DNA of 55,857 nt from Actinomycetota bacterium (lineage in GTDB: Bacteria; Actinomycetota; Actinomycetes; Nanopelagicales; Nanopelagicaceae): contig JAPLBF010000020.1 of the NCBI GenBank assembly GCA_026392825.1, positions 18,648 through 74,504 on the forward strand, read 5' to 3'. The notes under the pieces were generated by a model. The model saw nothing but the letters and a program-made list of their open reading frames with translations. It was not told the origin of the DNA and ran no database searches. Shown here piece by piece: positions 19,339 to 43,088 of this stretch. Position 1 is the stretch's first letter, and each line of letters starts with the position of its first letter. The position numbers were made by a program, and so were the translations under genes.

Positions 19339-19749
19339 TTGTCTACAAAAATTCGCTTAATGCGCATGGGAAAGATCCGCACACCATTTTTCCGCATCGT
19401 CGTAACAGATTCACGTAAAGCCCGTAACGGTCTATCAATTGAAGAAATTGGTCGTTACGTTCCAGGACAAGAGCCATCAATCATGGAAGTTAACTCTGCG
19501 CGCGCTCAGTACTGGCTCGGCGTAGGAGCACAACCAACAGCCGCTGTAGAGGCGATCTTTAAGGTCACTGGCGACTGGCAGAAGTTCAAGGGTCTTCCTG
19601 GAACTGAAGGAACACTTAAATTTGCAACACCAAAGCCAGCTAAGAGCATCGCTTACGAAGCCGCTGTTAAGCAAGCAATGGATGAAACCAAAAGAAGGCG
19701 CAACAACTATGAAGAAGAAGGCGCAAGAGAAGTTAGCTGCAAAAGCTAA
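19339..19749 (+). CDS. rpsP: 30S ribosomal protein S16, with frameshifted C-terminal tail
   Basis: The first ~110 residues are a normal S16 ([46 protein letters not shown]). Translation starts at TTG 19339 with TAGGAG 11 nt upstream. After VKQAMDE (about 19684) the frame changes character: it reads [12 protein letters not shown] and stops at 19749, while the +1 frame continues as [20 protein letters not shown] and an Ala/Glu/Val/Thr-rich tail to 19903. Actinobacterial S16 proteins normally carry such a basic-then-acidic tail. An extra A in GATGAAACC explains the shift. The ribosomal core is intact. Confidence 0.9.
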
Positions 19750-19903
19750 TCCTGTGCCGGTAGAAGAAGTAGTTGTGCCAGAAGCAACTGCGACCGAAGT
19801 GGTTGTGTCCGAACCAACTGCGACCGATGTGGTGGCAGAGGTTCCAGCGGAAGTTGCGACTGCAGACGTTGTGGTTGACACCACAGATGCGGCTGCCGAA
19901 TAA
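19684..19903 (+). pseudogene. Out-of-frame remainder of the S16 C-terminal tail
   Basis: The frame from about 19684 to the TAA at 19901-19903 encodes [16 protein letters not shown] followed by PVPVEEVVVPEA and repeated ATATEVV / TATDVV units. It lines up as the natural extension of S16 once one base is removed near 19685. It has no credible start of its own and ends 2 nt before khpA. It is best read as the detached tail of rpsP, from a real frameshift, a sequencing error, or much less likely programmed frameshifting. Confidence 0.7.
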
Positions 19904-32912: not shown

Positions 32913-32930
32913 AATTAGTTAAGGATGTAT

Positions 32931-35588
32931 ATGAGCAAGAACTCTCTAGGCGCTAAGAAGAATTTAAAAGTTGCAGGTAAAGATTTTGAAATTTTTGATA
33001 TTTCAAATCTTGAAGGCGCAGCTAACTTACCGTTCTCGCTCAAAGTACTCCTGGAAAACTTATTGCGCACCGAAGATGGCGCGAATATAACTGCTGACCA
33101 TATTAAATCACTCGCCCAATGGGATCCTGCTGCCGAACCTGATACTGAAATTCAGTTCACACCAGCACGCGTTGTAATGCAAGATTTCACTGGAGTTCCT
33201 TGCGTTGTTGATCTAGCCACGATGCGTGAGGCGATAGTTGAACTCGGGGGAGATCCCGCGAAGGTGAACCCGCTGGCACCTGCGGAACTCGTTATTGATC
33301 ACTCGGTCATCGCTGATTTCTTCGGCGGTAAAGATTCGTTCGAGAAAAATACAGATGTTGAATATGAGCGCAATCGTGAACGTTATCGTTTCTTGCGTTG
33401 GGGACAAGGCGCTTTCGACGAATTCAAGGTTGTGCCACCAGGAACCGGAATTGTTCACCAAGTAAATATTGAATACCTTGCTCGCGTCGTAATGACTCGT
33501 TCGGTAAATGGAGTACTTCGCGCCTATCCAGACACTGTTGTTGGAACAGATTCACACACAACAATGGTTAACGGACTAGGCGTACTCGGATGGGGCGTCG
33601 GCGGAATTGAGGCCGAAGCTGCGCTATTGGGCCAACCAGTGTCAATGTTGATTCCGCGTGTAGTCGGATTTAAATTAAGTGGTGCGCTTCCAGTCGGAAC
33701 GACAGCAACGGATATGGCGCTAACAATTACCGAGATGCTTCGCAAGCACGGAGTTGTCGGCAAGTTTGTGGAATTTTACGGTCCAGGCGTTGTTTCTGTA
33801 CCAATGGCAAACCGCACAACGATCGGCAATATGAGCCCTGAATATGGTTCAACTTGCGCGATATTCCCAATTGATGATGAGACTCTTCGTTACCTACGCC
33901 TAACTGGTCGCAGTGATGAACAAGTAGAACTTGTCGAGCAATATGCAAAAGCACAAGGTATGTGGCACGACCCAGCAATTAGTCCGCGCTTTTCTGAACA
34001 TATCGAATTAGATCTTTCGACAGTTGTTCCATCTATTTCAGGTCCAAAGCGTCCACAAGATCGCATCTCACTTAGCGGCTCTAAAGGTGCGTTCGAGAAA
34101 ATTCTTCCAACATACATAACCGATAAGACTGGCAAAGAGTCTTATCCAGTAAACGTTGGTGCTAAAGCGACAACAATTAAGAATGGTGATGTGGTTATCG
34201 CATCAATTACATCTTGCACAAACACTTCAAACCCTTCAGTAATGATTGGTGCCGCACTTCTTGCTAAGAAGGCTGTTGAGCGTGGATTAACTTCTAAGCC
34301 TTGGGTAAAGACAACTCTGGCACCGGGATCAAAGGTGGTTACCGATTACTACGATCGAGCAGATCTAACGAAATATATGGAAGCACTCGGTTTCAACCTT
34401 GTTGGCTATGGCTGCGTGACTTGTATCGGTAACTCTGGCCCGCTGCCAATTGAGATCAGCAAGTCAGTTAATGAACACGACTTAGCTGTTACGGCAGTAC
34501 TCTCCGGAAACCGTAACTTTGAAGGACGAATTAGCCCAGATGTGAAGATGAACTATCTCGCTTCGCCTCCGCTAGTCGTTGCTTATGCGCTAGCCGGAAC
34601 TATGAATCACGATTTTGAGAAGGATTCTCTTGGCAAAGATAAAGATGGTAAGGATGTCCTCTTAGCAGACATTTGGCCAAGCGCTAAAGAGATTCAAGAT
34701 GTAATTGACTCATCAATTTCATCAGAGATGTTTAAGAAGGATTACGCAACCGTTTTTGATGGCGATCATCGCTGGAAATCACTTGATACTCCAACTGGAA
34801 AAACTTTTGAATGGGATGCGCAGTCAACTTATGTCCGCAAACCTCCTTACTTCGACGGAATGCCAGCAAATCCAAAGCCGGTCACTGACATTTCTGGGGC
34901 ACGCGTGTTAGCGATTCTTGGAGACTCTGTAACAACCGATCACATTTCACCTGCAGGAAATATCAAAGCCGACTCACCTGCCGGTAAGTATCTTGAAGCT
35001 CACGGAGTAGCACGCGCTGACTTCAACTCATATGGATCACGACGTGGAAATCACGAAGTTATGATCCGCGGAACTTTTGCCAATATTCGCTTGAAGAATA
35101 TGTTGCTTGATGGAGTCGAAGGTGGCTTCACACGTAACTTCTTAGACGAAGGTAAACAAGCAACAATTTATGATGCTTCAATTGCTTATCAAAGCGCTGG
35201 CGTCCCTTTAGTAATCCTTGCAGGTAAAGAGTATGGATCTGGATCATCGCGCGACTGGGCGGCGAAAGGCACAGCGTTGTTGGGTGTACGTGCTGTCATC
35301 GCGGAAAGTTTCGAGCGTATCCACCGTTCTAATTTGATTGGAATGGGTGTACTTCCATTGCAATTTAAAGATGGCCAAACAGCTCAATCTCTTGGCTTAA
35401 CCGGAACTGAAACTTTTGCGATTTCAGGGATCACTGAATTAAACATCGGTGGAATTCCGAAAGAGGTAAAGGTCACAGCGGGTGATAAGTCATTTAACGC
35501 CAAGGTGCGAATCGATACGCCGGGCGAGGGTGATTATTACCGTCACGGGGGGATCATGCAGTACGTACTCCGCCAATTACTTCAGTAA
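32931..35588 (+). CDS. acnA: Aconitate hydratase A
   Basis: Aconitase interconverts citrate and isocitrate in the TCA cycle. The 885-aa protein has the [4Fe-4S] ligands in [13 protein letters not shown] and [12 protein letters not shown], the early HSVIADFFG segment and the swivel-domain [16 protein letters not shown]. The ATG at 32931 has AAGGA 5 nt upstream and gives the family start [17 protein letters not shown] 32925 lies within that Shine-Dalgarno and is less likely. It stands alone as a transcription unit. Confidence 0.97.
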
Positions 35589-35646: not shown

Positions 35647-35658
35647 TAGAATGAAGCC
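35647..35658 (+). promoter_or_regulatory. -10 box upstream of the original dxs start
   Basis: TAGAAT at 35647-35652 followed by 6 nt and ATG 35659. The spacing is the same as for other leaderless genes here, which supports ATG 35659 as the ancestral dxs start. Confidence 0.5.
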
Positions 35659-35772
35659 ATGATTGAGCAAATAAAATCGCCTGCAGATATCAAGGCGCTA
35701 GATCTTGCTCAGCTCAATTCACTCTGTTTCAAAAACTGGCGGACATCTCGGACCAAATTTAGGTGTTGTTGA
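35659..35772 (+). pseudogene. Frameshifted 5' part of dxs
   Basis: From ATG 35659 the frame reads MIEQIKSPADIKALDLAQLNSL, a clear match to the start of actinobacterial DXP synthase. It then runs out of frame and stops at 35770-35772. The rest of Dxs continues in another frame from about 35705. Comparing with the mycobacterial protein, about ten residues (the segment like AAEIREF) are missing, which fits a 32-nt deletion. Confidence 0.75.
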
Positions 35773-37570
35773 GTTAACTCTGGCGATTCATCGCGCCTTC
35801 GATTCTCCGCGCGATGTCGTTCTCTTTGATACTGGACATCAATCCTACGTTCATAAAATAGTGACGGGGCGAGCAGATAGTTTTGATGGGCTACGTCAAC
35901 GTGGCGGTATCGCTGGTTATCCAAATCGGAGCGAGAGCGAACACGATGTAATTGAAAATTCACACGCTTCCACCGCCCTCTCTTGGGGAGATGGAATCTC
36001 ATTTGGCTTCGCACAGACTGGCCAGGTAGATCGTCACGTGGTCGTGGTTGTTGGTGATGGTGCATTAACCGGTGGAATGTCTTGGGAGGCGCTAAATAAC
36101 ATCGCTGCCGCCGAGGAGCGAAAATTGGTGATAGTTGTAAACGATAACGAGCGTTCTTATTCGCCAACTATTGGGGGATTGGCAACTTACCTTTCAACCT
36201 TACGTGTCACAAAAGGATATGAACGTTTCTTAGACTGGGGTAAAGAAGTACTTCATAAGACCCCAGTCGTCGGCGCACCAATTTATGAAACATTGCACGG
36301 AATGAAAAAAGGCATTAAAGATATAGTCGCTCCGCAGGGAATGTTTGAAGATCTAGGTTTGAAATATATGGGTCCGATCGATGGACATGACATTGCTGCT
36401 CTTGAAAAAGCGCTACAGAAAGCGAAGGAGTTCGGTGCTCCTGTACTGGTTCATGTAATAACTGAAAAGGGTCGCGGCCATAAGCCCGCAATCGATGATG
36501 AAGCTGAGAAGTTTCACGCTGTTGGGATAGTAGATCCTGAAACTGGAGCACCGCTTGCCAAGAGCGCCACAAGTTGGACCAAGATTTTCTCTACCGAATT
36601 AATTGAAATTGCTCGAGAGCGCGAAGATATAGTTGCAATTACCGCCGCGATGATGGGCCCAACCGGACTTGATGCCTTTGAAAGAGAATTTCCAAGTCGA
36701 ACAATTGATGTCGGTATCGCAGAACAACATGCTGTTACTAGTGCAGCGGGCATGGCCTTTGCTGGCTTGCATCCAGTAGTTGCGGTTTATTCAACATTTT
36801 TAAATCGGGCATTTGATCAATTGCTTCTTGATGTCGCACTGCATAAGGCCGGCGTCACCTTTATTTTGGATCGCGCTGGTGTAACTGGAGATGATGGCCC
36901 ATCACATCACGGAATTTGGGATTTGGCGTTAACGGGAATCGTTCCGACGATGCATGTCGCGGCCCCGCGCGATGCAACGCGACTGCGCGAAACGCTGCGG
37001 GAGGCGGTAGCAATTTCTAACGCGCCTTCAATGTTGCGCTATCCAAAAGGTGCGGTTCAAAGTGATATTCCGGCATTTGAACGTCGTGATGGAATTGATG
37101 TTCTATATCGCGGCGAAAGTGCGGATGTCTTGTTGGTGAGCATTGGCGCGATGGCTGCGATTGCGGTTGAGGCAGCTGGTATGGCTTACCGAGAAGGTGT
37201 CGGCGTAACGGTTATTGATCCACGATGGGTGAAACCATTGCCCGCTTCTCTAGCCACGATGGCGCGACGATACAAGAGCGTGGTAGTTCTGGAGGATGGT
37301 ATTAAGCATGGCGGAATCGCGAGCTCAATCTCTGAAATTTTCCGCGAGGTAGGACTGAATATTCCAATTCACTCAATTGGTGTTCCACTTGAGTTCATTG
37401 AACATTCCAAGCGGAGCGAAATTTTCAGCGACCTAGGCATTACTTCTCAAAGCATTGCGCGCAGTATCGTTGAGTGGAATAGCTCTAACGGATCAGTTAG
37501 CTCAATTGAAATTATGGAAGAGATGCAATCCCCGGCGCGTGAAAACGCTGACCGCAAACCGCTTCACTGA
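35705..37570 (+). CDS. dxs: 1-deoxy-D-xylulose-5-phosphate synthase, N-terminus disrupted
   Basis: Dxs joins pyruvate and glyceraldehyde 3-phosphate with TPP to start the MEP isoprenoid pathway. The frame covers 621 residues: HSVSKTGGHLGPNLGVVELT, the TPP motif GDGALTGGMSWEALNN, the transketolase central domain (DVGIAEQHAVTSAAGMAFAG) and the C-terminal domain. Only the first 20-30 residues are out of frame because of an apparent 32-nt deletion. A TTG at 35705 with AAGG 9 nt upstream might still start translation, so the enzyme may be functional. The 3' end overlaps the convergent fadJ by 59 nt. Confidence 0.9.
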   Translation: MLSSIHSVSKTGGHLGPNLGVVELTLAIHRAFDSPRDVVLFDTGHQSYVHKIVTGRADSFDGLRQRGGIAGYPNRSESEHDVIENSHASTALSWGDGISFGFAQTGQVDRHVVVVVGDGALTGGMSWEALNNIAAAEERKLVIVVNDNERSYSPTIGGLATYLSTLRVTKGYERFLDWGKEVLHKTPVVGAPIYETLHGMKKGIKDIVAPQGMFEDLGLKYMGPIDGHDIAALEKALQKAKEFGAPVLVHVITEKGRGHKPAIDDEAEKFHAVGIVDPETGAPLAKSATSWTKIFSTELIEIAREREDIVAITAAMMGPTGLDAFEREFPSRTIDVGIAEQHAVTSAAGMAFAGLHPVVAVYSTFLNRAFDQLLLDVALHKAGVTFILDRAGVTGDDGPSHHGIWDLALTGIVPTMHVAAPRDATRLRETLREAVAISNAPSMLRYPKGAVQSDIPAFERRDGIDVLYRGESADVLLVSIGAMAAIAVEAAGMAYREGVGVTVIDPRWVKPLPASLATMARRYKSVVVLEDGIKHGGIASSISEIFREVGLNIPIHSIGVPLEFIEHSKRSEIFSDLGITSQSIARSIVEWNSSNGSVSSIEIMEEMQSPARENADRKPLH

Positions 37571-39620
37571 TTCCTTCACGATCTAAGTAAGGCAATATTC
37601 CACCTAAATGCATCGGCCAGCCAGAGCCCATCAGCATACAAAGATCAATTTCAGCGGGAGTTGATACAACTCCTTCATCGAGCATCATGCGCGCCTCAAC
37701 CGCTAACGCTCTAAGTGCACGTTCGCGAACTTGTTCGGCTGTGGATGCCGTTGTTCCTTGTTTCATTAAAGCTAGCGCTTCTGGGTTTGGCGTTAACTTG
37801 CCGTCACTGCCCTTGATGTAGAAGTTGCGGACTTTAGCCGCAACCATCGCCTGCATTGTGGGGGAGATGCGATAACGCTCACCTAGATTTGCATGCAAAG
37901 TCTCCGATACGTGCAGCGCAACACCTGGACCAACCAAATCTAGGAGCTCAAATGGTGACATTGGAAAACCAATGCTGCGCATTGCGCTATCTGCAACCGC
38001 TGGTGAGGTGCCTTCATCGACAGCATCGGTAACTTCACCCATAAAGCGTGTGAGCAAACGGTTAACGACAAAGCCAGGTGCATCTTTACAGATAATCATT
38101 GTCTTCTTTAACTCTTTGCCGACTGCTACTGCAGTCGCGGTAGTTGCATCATCTGTCGTGGAAGTACGTGCAATTTCAAGCAGCGGCATAACTGCAACCG
38201 GGTTGAAGAAGTGGAATCCAATAACTCTCTCTGGATTTGATAGCCCTTCAGTCATTCTTTCCACTGAAAGCGATGAAGTGTTTGTGGCAAGAACACACTC
38301 AGGGGAGACGATCTTCTCTAACTTCTTAAAGAGCTCTTGCTTAAGGGAGAGTTCTTCGAATATCGCTTCGATAATAAAGTCACAGCCAGCAAATGAGTTC
38401 TGATCTGCTGAACCACTAATTAGCAGGGAAAGGCGACGAGCGGATTCTTCACTCATGCGCTTCTTCTCAACTAACTTTGCCAATTCATTTTTGACCCAGG
38501 CAACGCCTTTATCCGCGCGCTCTTGATCTATGTCGGTCATCACAACGGGGCACTTCAAATTACGTAGAAGAAGAAGTGCAAGTTGCGAAGCCATTAGACC
38601 TGCTCCAACAACGCCAACCTTGGCTACTTTGCGAGCAAGGGCTGGTTTTGGAGCACCTTCAACCTTTTTGCGCTTCTTCTGAATTAAATTAAAGGCATAT
38701 AGCGAAGCGCGCAGCGGATCAGACATTGTTAAATCGGCGAGTGCTTGATCTTCTGCGTCAAAGCCTGCCCCGCGAGTGTTTGTGCGTGCGGCAGCGATTA
38801 ACTCAAGAGCGCGCATTGGCGATGCAATTTCTGCGCCACCATACTTCTTTAATGATGCCGCCTTACCGGTAGCCAGCGCTGTTTCCCAAGCAGGATCGGT
38901 TGAGTAGTCCTTGCGTTCGATTTTAGCTTTGCCAGATAAAACATTTGCCGCAAAGGAAACTGAACGTTCTAAGAAATCTGCTGGTTCATAAACAGCGTCT
39001 ACGACACCAAGTGAGAGAGCATCCTTAGCTTTCATCATCGTGTTGTTATTTAGCGCATTTAGCATTATCACTTGTATCGCGCGTTCTGGACCGATCAACT
39101 TAGGCAAAATTGTGGCACCGCCCCAACCTGGCACTAAACCAAGGAAGACTTCTGGTAATCCGGTAAGTGCAGTTGAGGCCAAGGTGCGATAGTTGCAATG
39201 CAGGCCGACTTCAAGTCCGCCACCGAGGGCTAGGCCATTAATAAATGCGAATGTTGGAATTCCGCATTCATCAAATCTGCGAAATACATCATGGCCTAAT
39301 TTTCCAATCGCAAGTGATTGCTCGCGCTTTGCTAGAAAGGAGAGTGCAGAAAGATCTGCACCTGCAGCGAAGATAAATGGTTTTCCGGTGATCGCGATTG
39401 CAGCTGGTGCACGACCAATGGCATCGGTGATTGCCGCATCCAGAGCAGCAAGGGATTGCGGTCCGAAGGTATTGGGACGATTGTGGTCTAAACCATTATC
39501 TAAAGTAATAAGCGCGAGAGAGCCTTTGTGGCCAAATGGAGTTAGGTCAACATCGCGTACAAGTGCGTTAGTGATGACTTCTTCTGGAGCGCCTTCAGGT
39601 AATTTCATTTCTGTTGTCAT
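37512..39620 (-). CDS. fadJ: Trifunctional-type fatty oxidation protein: enoyl-CoA hydratase / 3-hydroxyacyl-CoA dehydrogenase
   Basis: The 702-aa protein performs two steps of beta-oxidation. The N-terminal crotonase domain has the oxyanion-hole segments KPFIFAAGADLSALSF and NGLALGGGLEVGLHCNY. The NAD-binding domain starts with VGVVGAGLMASQLALLLL, followed by IEAIFEELSLKQELF, VLATNTSSLS and GFHFFNPVAVMPLLE. The C-terminal dehydrogenase helices complete the fold. The start at 39620 overlaps the fadA stop by one base (TAATG), with GGAGG upstream inside fadA. The 3' end overlaps dxs on the other strand by 59 nt. Confidence 0.95.
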   Translation of the reverse strand: MTTEMKLPEGAPEEVITNALVRDVDLTPFGHKGSLALITLDNGLDHNRPNTFGPQSLAALDAAITDAIGRAPAAIAITGKPFIFAAGADLSALSFLAKREQSLAIGKLGHDVFRRFDECGIPTFAFINGLALGGGLEVGLHCNYRTLASTALTGLPEVFLGLVPGWGGATILPKLIGPERAIQVIMLNALNNNTMMKAKDALSLGVVDAVYEPADFLERSVSFAANVLSGKAKIERKDYSTDPAWETALATGKAASLKKYGGAEIASPMRALELIAAARTNTRGAGFDAEDQALADLTMSDPLRASLYAFNLIQKKRKKVEGAPKPALARKVAKVGVVGAGLMASQLALLLLRNLKCPVVMTDIDQERADKGVAWVKNELAKLVEKKRMSEESARRLSLLISGSADQNSFAGCDFIIEAIFEELSLKQELFKKLEKIVSPECVLATNTSSLSVERMTEGLSNPERVIGFHFFNPVAVMPLLEIARTSTTDDATTATAVAVGKELKKTMIICKDAPGFVVNRLLTRFMGEVTDAVDEGTSPAVADSAMRSIGFPMSPFELLDLVGPGVALHVSETLHANLGERYRISPTMQAMVAAKVRNFYIKGSDGKLTPNPEALALMKQGTTASTAEQVRERALRALAVEARMMLDEGVVSTPAEIDLCMLMGSGWPMHLGGILPYLDREGISEAVCGQRFHAPGIASLP

Positions 39621-40810
39621 TACTTTGATCCTCCAGTGAAGTGAGGGTTCTCCCAAATAACGGTGCCGCCCATACCAAGTCCGATACACATTGTGGTTAA
39701 GCCGTAACGAACATCGGTGTGCTCTTCAAAAGAGCGCGCCAGATTTAACATTAAGCGAATTCCAGATGATGCCAACGGGTGGCCGACAGCAATTGCTCCG
39801 CCATATGGATTAACGCGAGGATCATCATCTGCAATTCCGAAGTGATCTAAGAAGGCAATTACTTGCACAGCGAATGCCTCATTAACTTCAAAGGCGCCGA
39901 TATCTGAAATTTTTAAACCAGCTTTTGCCAAAGCCTTGATTGTTGAAGGAACAGGCCCAAAACCCATAACTTCTGGTTCGACGCCAGCAAATGCGTAGGA
40001 AACTAACTTGGCCTTAATAGTTAGCCCCAACTCTTTTGCTTTATCTTCACTAGCAAGAAGTGCGGCGGTTGCGCCATCATTTAAACCAGATGAATTTCCA
40101 GGTGTTACGCGACCTGCAGCGCGAAAAGGAGTCTTGAGTGTTGATAAGCCTTCCATTGTCGTTGTTGGACGTGGTGGCTCATCAACAGTTGCAATACCCC
40201 AACCCATCTCTGGAATACGAGCAGCAGTTGGAATTAAATCTCTTTGAATTTTTCCAGCGGCATATGCGGCCGCGGTTTTCATTTGTGAGTTATAGGCATA
40301 GCGATCTGCGCGCTCTTTAGTTAATTGCGGAAAGCGATCGTGTAAACGTTCTGCGGTTGCACCCATGGCGAGTGCATCTTGTTCAACAATTCGCTCAGCT
40401 AAAAATCTTGGATTCGGATCAAGACCATCACCGATTGGATGGTTGCCCATATGTTCGACTCCGCCAGCAATTGCAATATCGATTGAACCGATTGCAATTG
40501 CACCAGCTAGCGATGTAGTTGCGGTGAGCGCACCAGCGCACCAGCGATCAACTGAATATCCAGGCACTGTATTTGGCAGGCCGGCAAGCAATGATGCGCT
40601 TCGCCCTAAATTCATACCTTGATCACCAGTTTGTGTTGCAGCAGCGATCGCAACATCTTCGATATCACCGGGATTTACTTTCGGATTGCGCTCTAGCAAG
40701 CCGCGCATCGCGCGCACCATCAGATCATCGGCGCGAGTACCGGAGTACATGCTGCCGGCCTTTCCAAAAGGGGTACGAACGGCATCAACTAGAACAACGG
40801 TGCGAGACAT
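39620..40810 (-). CDS. fadA: Acetyl-CoA acyltransferase (3-ketoacyl-CoA thiolase)
   Basis: FadA cleaves 3-ketoacyl-CoA in the last step of beta-oxidation. The 396-aa protein shows the nucleophilic Cys C91 in YSVDRWCAGAL (slightly unlike the common NRFCSSG), NEAFAVQ, the catalytic His in AVGHPLASSG and the second Cys in TTMCIGLGMGG. It is the first gene of the fadA-fadJ operon on the minus strand, consistent with a multienzyme beta-oxidation complex. An 83-nt gap with repeats lies upstream. Confidence 0.95.
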   Translation of the reverse strand: MSRTVVLVDAVRTPFGKAGSMYSGTRADDLMVRAMRGLLERNPKVNPGDIEDVAIAAATQTGDQGMNLGRSASLLAGLPNTVPGYSVDRWCAGALTATTSLAGAIAIGSIDIAIAGGVEHMGNHPIGDGLDPNPRFLAERIVEQDALAMGATAERLHDRFPQLTKERADRYAYNSQMKTAAAYAAGKIQRDLIPTAARIPEMGWGIATVDEPPRPTTTMEGLSTLKTPFRAAGRVTPGNSSGLNDGATAALLASEDKAKELGLTIKAKLVSYAFAGVEPEVMGFGPVPSTIKALAKAGLKISDIGAFEVNEAFAVQVIAFLDHFGIADDDPRVNPYGGAIAVGHPLASSGIRLMLNLARSFEEHTDVRYGLTTMCIGLGMGGTVIWENPHFTGGSK

Positions 40811-41777: not shown

Positions 41778-43088
41778 TCACACCTCGGTTGGGGCTACTT
41801 CAGGCTCTTCGCTCTCAGGGGCCGCCAGCGGGATGGTCTCGAGCAGAGCTGACTCCAAAATGGGGGCTGCGATCTCAATCTGCCAGGAACGAGCACCCAG
41901 AGTAGCCAAAGCGCCCGCTACCTCGCCTTTAGGGGAGTTCCAGCAGATCCGGCGGATGTATTCCGGGGTAAGCATATTTTCAAGGGGGATAGATAGCTCA
42001 TCCGCTTTTGCCAATAAACGAGCCTTGGCATGGGTAAGCGGAGCGTATTTATCTGGAAAGCGCTCACGCCAAATCTTTAGCGGCGGTAATGCATCTGAAT
42101 CAGTTCTCGTTTGCGGCCATTGATCTTCGCTAAGGGCTACGGCATCGGAAATCGCGTTAATCCAGGAAGCGGCGTTTTCCAGCCAACGCGCTCGCAGACC
42201 AAGCGGACGGAGAATTCGCTCCAAATCTTTCTTTGTCTTAATCGTCTTCACATGGGCAACGCTGGCAATTTCTACGATTGCCGCATCTGAGAGAAGGCGC
42301 CCTTGGGAGATATCAGCTTCCTGAGCGATTTCATTTCGCACTATCCAAAGTGCGCGGACTACCGCTAACTGATTTCGTTTCTTAATTTTATGCATCCCCG
42401 AAGTTCTGCGCCAAGGATCAACCCGAGGTGGTGGTGGGGGAGCATCGAGGATCGCTTGAAATTCTTCACGCGCCCACTCCCATTTATTTGCGCTCGCCAA
42501 AAGTCCATAAACTTTTTCACGTAGTTCCACCAATAACTCAACATCAAGTGCGGCGTAATTTAGCCATTCTTGCGGCAATGGTCGCTGTGACCAATCCGCT
42601 GCCGAATGTTCTTTGGCGAGTGAGACCTCCATAAGAGATTCAAGAAGTGGCCCTAACCCAACTCTAGGAAGTCCGGCAATGCGACCACCTAATTCGGTAT
42701 CAAATAATTTTTTAGGGTTGATCCCCAACTCGCGCAGACAAGGAAGATCCTGCGTGCTGGCGTGCAGAATTACTTCATCGCTCTGCAAAAGTGCATTTAA
42801 TTCAATAAACAAGCGATGGTTTGGACCAAATGGAATCGGATCAACCAGATGCAAACCTCCACCATGGCGTTTAATCTGAATCAAATATGCACGCGCACTA
42901 AATTTAAAGCCAGAAGCTCTCTCCGCATCAACAGCAAAAGGGCCAGAACCTTCTGCTAACTCACGGATTGCGCTTTCAAAGGATGCTTCATCTGCAATAA
43001 TTTTTGGAACACCATCGGCAGGTGCCAATAGCGGAATCGCGGTAATTACCGGTTCGTTTTCAGCAGAATCTTCTTTGACGTTATCCAT
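41778..43088 (-). CDS. rnd: Ribonuclease D (DEDD 3'-5' exonuclease with HRDC domain)
   Basis: RNase D trims the 3' ends of tRNAs and other small RNAs. The 436-aa protein has the DEDD motifs: FAVDAERASGFKFSARAYLIQIKR (D and E), ILHASTQDLPCL, and YAALDVELL. An HRDC domain follows (residues about 220-300) and then a C-terminal actinobacterial HRDC-like extension. It forms a minus-strand pair with the DUF3000 gene 21 nt upstream. The dxs-rnd-DUF3000 neighbourhood is common in actinobacteria, although here fadJ/fadA and FTR1 are inserted between. Confidence 0.92.
   Translation of the reverse strand: MDNVKEDSAENEPVITAIPLLAPADGVPKIIADEASFESAIRELAEGSGPFAVDAERASGFKFSARAYLIQIKRHGGGLHLVDPIPFGPNHRLFIELNALLQSDEVILHASTQDLPCLRELGINPKKLFDTELGGRIAGLPRVGLGPLLESLMEVSLAKEHSAADWSQRPLPQEWLNYAALDVELLVELREKVYGLLASANKWEWAREEFQAILDAPPPPPRVDPWRRTSGMHKIKKRNQLAVVRALWIVRNEIAQEADISQGRLLSDAAIVEIASVAHVKTIKTKKDLERILRPLGLRARWLENAASWINAISDAVALSEDQWPQTRTDSDALPPLKIWRERFPDKYAPLTHAKARLLAKADELSIPLENMLTPEYIRRICWNSPKGEVAGALATLGARSWQIEIAAPILESALLETIPLAAPESEEPEVAPTEV

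Follow-up and report, generated by a model that had tools for sequence, protein, structure and literature searches.

A 32-nt gap in dxs of an actinobacterial draft genome as a probable assembly misjoin

The window, a 55,857-nt stretch of one contig from a draft genome assigned to the Nanopelagicaceae, carries on its forward strand a dxs gene whose reading frame is broken near the 5′-end. The gene is flanked upstream by an open frame that is presumably aconitase-like (32925–35588, forward strand) and downstream by one that is presumably 3-hydroxyacyl-CoA dehydrogenase-like (37512–39689, reverse strand). The 5′ part of dxs (35659–35726, frame 1) reads MIEQIKSPADIKALDLAQLNSL, after which the frame opened by ATG 35659 leaves the Dxs family and, read by eye, reaches a stop at 35770–35772. 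The remaining open frame on the same strand (35705–37570) comprises 621 aa counted from TTG 35705; its homology to Dxs starts at base 35726, from which translation in the +1 frame gives VSKTGGHLG and continues without interruption as far as 37570. This 621-aa frame passes the equivalog cut-off of TIGR00204 (601.2 bits against 465.95), and the full Dxs N-terminal region is not contained in any single frame, the break lying at 35726/35727 with a one-base ambiguity due to a shared G. Re-reading the window reproduced the positions given by the first-pass annotation for the ATG (35659), an AAGG (35692–35695), the TTG (35705), and an 18-mer (35707–35724). Its description of the second frame as family sequence from 35705 holds from VSKTGGHLG onward and fails for the preceding LLSSIHS, where the closest relatives have QFLITK.

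The start of the gene carries a −10-like hexamer of the leaderless type, TAGAAT (35647–35652, forward strand), 6 nt upstream of the ATG. Of 63 distinct relatives, 10 were left out for having no ATG or GTG at the expected place; TANNNT with a spacer of 6–7 nt precedes the dxs start in 51 of the remaining 53, compared to 12, 0, 1, 0, and 1 of 53 when the position is shifted by 5, 8, 16, 24, and 32 nt. A Shine-Dalgarno-like 4-mer was found in bases −20 to −4 of dxs in none of the 53. Judged from these motifs, dxs looks like a conserved leaderless gene in the relatives.

Comparison with relatives confirmed the proposal that dxs has lost 32 nt with a shift of frame, the loss being exactly 32 nt after base 35726. 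Briefly, a genus-wide search matched dxs in 113 of 135 genomes (own genome counted); most of the other matches begin aligning at or near the junction, and six genomes (G139, G136, G074, G029, G011, and G066) span the whole 601-base query, with 633 bases across the junction in all six against 601 in the window. Of 143 loci examined, 3 lacked dxs and 3 had too little upstream sequence, and the frame is kept in 134 of the 137 that were left (some genomes being counted more than once). The three broken loci are two copies of the window itself (L001 and L114) and L014, from another genus member (G007), in which a different change, a 1-nt loss in an A run near the same site as read by eye, is possibly a homopolymer error. 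The 24-mer across the junction, searched with up to 3 mismatches in 201 family genomes, occurs in one, the own assembly, the only genome of its species among those examined; no relative among the 6 aligned genomes, the 201 family genomes, and the 137 loci shares the deletion, and a scan of viral contigs for a 21-nt junction pattern gave no match. The break is thus confined to a single assembly, with the window's two copies its only carriers among the 137 loci, and a shared ancestral deletion is rejected by its absence from every relative examined. In a separate observation on the records themselves, three metagenome-assembled genome records labelled Bifidobacterium breve (L034, L037, and L072) carry a dxs 72–97% identical to that of the window over 198 aa; these labels look wrong, as do those of L041 and L054, which read Streptomyces griseus.

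The missing segment is a conserved one. Across 63 distinct upstream sequences, taken from relatives with at least 78% identity over the 198-aa query, Leu −16, Ile −12, Arg −11, Leu −8, and Val −4 are invariant in all 63, and the Ile −12, Arg −11, and Leu −8 columns sit within the missing 32 nt. Identity to the closest relative is practically equal to the left (88% of 68 bases) and to the right (89% of 300) of the junction, the window is free of N, and no chimera is visible at the dxs junction.

Isoprenoid synthesis depends on Dxs, as does, in many cases, that of thiamin and pyridoxal phosphate. The own genome holds one full-length Dxs, its other matches being partial and 24–30% identical. Besides dxs, two PF13292 matches pass the Pfam cut-off of 21.2 (31.5 and 22.7 bits); the better of them belongs to the next-best Dxs match, a split pair on another contig, both halves of which fit transketolase models better than dxs, all scores falling below the whole-protein cut-offs. 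This transketolase-like pair, whose N- and C-terminal parts lie apart on a single contig of the own genome, corresponds to loci L002 and L154. No match to HMG-CoA reductase was found in the own genome, and its IspG and IspH matches are intact, so loss of dxs should be lethal. A second dxs or a mevalonate route acting as backup is rejected on the same findings: no second full-length Dxs and no HMG-CoA reductase match.

Furthermore, the remaining part of dxs is under strong purifying selection, which fits a working gene. Its dN/dS is 0.028 against the closest relative (L115) and 0.025–0.037 against other relatives, compared to 0.028–0.037 for four intact relatives among themselves, all values to be read with dS being high (0.7–1.8); unique amino-acid changes number 8–10 in the window and 5–7 in L115, depending on the outgroup. 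Neither dN/dS nor relative rates support a decayed pseudogene; dxs has not been decaying. Had the loss become fixed, it must have done so very recently or be offset by a rescue.

The assembly that contains the window is probably metagenome-derived and, going by its relatives, represents a freshwater actinobacterium of the Nanopelagicales type; it consists of 38 contigs and is 97% complete. A first, coarser scan (100-aa open reading frames, both strands) flagged 3 places in the window against G066 and 4 against G136. When non-overlapping open reading frames were compared with 48 G066 genes and 56 G136 genes, and matches to paralogous regions and a gene truncated at the edge of the window were set aside, dxs and rpsP remained as the genes split between frames with both relatives. 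In a wider sample of 765 kb of own stretches, window included, G066 genes of at least 150 aa used as queries were frame-broken in 13 of 312 cases; the same kind of query gave no broken gene among 123 in G136, 86 in G001, or 53 in G139. For the difference between 13 of 312 and the pooled 0 of 262 in these three controls, the Fisher P-value is 3.5e-4 (0.018 for the 7 clearest breaks), to be read with the control comparisons sharing the same query genes and covering few contigs. With other queries the own genome again shows breaks (5 of 86 G136 genes, 2 of 60 G001 genes), whereas in further controls no break turned up among 124 G136 genes or 86 G001 genes in G066 or among 15 G136 genes in G139, and 1 of 119 was broken both for G001 genes in G136 and for G136 genes in G001. 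Similar breaks at unrelated core genes are therefore present in this assembly and rarer elsewhere (13 of 312 against 0 of 262, and 1 of 119 twice); the own assembly is break-prone compared to the controls.

In the reverse direction, own genes were flagged in 8 of 314 cases when compared with G066, in 5 of 84 with G136, and in 2 of 58 with G001. Six of the 8 flags against G066 are the same loci by position, and a reverse-direction flag at window position 41778 reflects a difference of 1 nt immediately ahead of a start codon and does not count as a break. In-gene single or double stops, counted in a smaller sample (genes of at least 100 aa), number 12 in the own genome and 16 in G066; the 8 that were inspected all lie near gene ends.

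Graded by eye, the 13 broken genes comprise 7 clear cases, 1 probable case, and 5 that are possibly natural differences near gene ends. The clear cases within the window are dxs (35726/35727, forward strand; 32 nt lost) and rpsP, encoding 30S ribosomal protein S16 (19339–19903, forward strand), in which an extra A near 19685, relative to both G066 and G136, shifts the acidic/alanine-rich C-terminal tail out of frame. Elsewhere, nusG (L253, ~900–1800) contains a near-duplicate of 49 nt, with two bases differing between the copies, as would result from joining the variants of two strains; atpD has lost 42 and 5 nt, gap-free; a helicase-like gene, with family matches below cut-offs, has lost 47 nt, gap-free; cmk-der has lost 1 nt; and maf is interrupted by a run of N with the same 9 bases on either side, which makes it a gap and not an indel. 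In cysS, the probable case, 29 nt are missing, the alignment being divergent. The uncertain ones are a YaaA-type gene, a Ni-SOD gene, dnaA (near its start), and two unnamed genes, one of them with a divergent start. A thioredoxin-like gene of 137 aa, outside the 13 for being shorter than 150 aa, has lost 37 nt, gap-free. A second piece of atpD on another contig is without bases 199–320 of the gene (122 nt) and bears no sign of a gap; it runs to the contig end, and its terminal 231 bases share 93% identity with the first copy, compared to 79% for the preceding 1.5 kb. Both own copies of atpD (L195:12407–13828 against L251 and L257) are thus broken, at different places, and because these copies contradict each other the bin probably mixes related populations. 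Together with the nusG near-duplicate, they look like joining errors in a strain mixture.

Because other core genes in the same draft break similarly, we read the dxs gap as most likely a misjoin, an explanation in which we have considerable confidence. What is shown directly is the loss, that none of the examined relatives shares it, and that the own assembly has more such breaks than the controls. Two pieces would have been put together with no Ns between them although 32 bases of the real dxs were missing there, and the same kind of joining would have occurred at several other core genes of this assembly. The cause would be the joining step, whether through strain mixture, scaffolding, or gap closing, and the living organism would keep an intact dxs. 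As described in PMC8021871, strain differences can cause misassemblies, and uncorrected indels of long noisy reads lead to frameshifts. An aside in the first-pass annotation that an assembler might be the culprit fits this evidence. What counts against a misjoin is the junction itself, which has no N and equal matches to the closest relative on both sides.

The same clean junction, without N and without a step in divergence, favors a real deletion, which we consider unlikely overall, with or without rescue of translation at TTG 35705. In its simplest form, to which we give a somewhat smaller chance, a recent 32-bp deletion by slippage or end joining would have left dxs inactive or impaired, perhaps as a minority variant. 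The 1-nt microhomology at the junction is compatible with either process; yet dxs is single copy, the mevalonate-pathway reductase was not found, the loss removes an Ile, an Arg, and a Leu that every one of the distinct relatives retains, and many other core genes are broken in the same assembly. That a real strain-level deletion in the conserved N-terminal segment of Dxs is tolerated by a free-living actinobacterium, through TTG 35705 or by isoprenoid precursors obtained otherwise, seems less probable still.

Rescue specifically by an internal start at TTG 35705, which the first-pass annotation had suggested from the AAGG upstream, would yield a working 621-aa Dxs without its first ~27 residues. 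The TTG and an AAGG 9 nt upstream of it do exist, and the downstream frame is open over 621 aa and strongly conserved. They form no special signal, however: the AAGG is ordinary coding sequence common to the intact L116, L117, L120, and L121 (not L115), and the segment that such a protein would lack is conserved. Because dxs starts in the relatives look leaderless (51 of 53), with the Shine-Dalgarno-like 4-mer in 0 of 53, the internal TTG would probably be a poor start, and we regard this rescue as very improbable. Ribosomal frameshifting was also rejected, since it would have to be a +1 shift ahead of the frame-1 stop and would not restore the 32 nt; a by-eye reading of the window dxs showed no known +1 frameshift signal.

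Least credible, and in our estimation close to dismissed, is a short direct repeat of which two copies recombined or were collapsed by an assembler: the 18-mer can be read in two frames, but its second copy, predicted to lie 32 nt from the first in intact relatives, was not found in the six genus relatives aligned across the junction, where the 18 bases before both breakpoints agree at 5–8 of 18 positions and the best other 18-mer match within ~120 nt reaches 9–12 of 18. Exact microhomology at the breakpoints is 1 nt in the two closest relatives and at most 3 nt in the six. That the 18-mer is readable in both frames does not point to a repeat, because LLSSIHS arises from the bases of AQLNSL in another frame and the closest relatives have QFLITK there. 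The repeat mechanism of the first-pass annotation is accordingly left unsupported.

When an essential gene in a draft genome shows a broken frame, the finding is best weighed first against relatives and then against a count of other broken core genes in that assembly. By that measure the own assembly, 97% complete by statistics, is unreliable for claims of gene loss. Set against known local misassembly and indel errors of metagenome-assembled genomes, its core genes show gap-free losses, near-duplicate joins, and contradictory copies as the common features, with the difference that here the cause is deduced from the pattern of breaks. Set against the Dxs family (TIGR00204, PF13292), the window dxs differs in having its N-terminal end out of frame, so that its match begins at profile position 30 of 616, or 29 of 274; for the rest, the 621-aa frame shares 92% identity with G011 and 91% with G029 along almost all of its length, and 97% with G139 across 198 aa.
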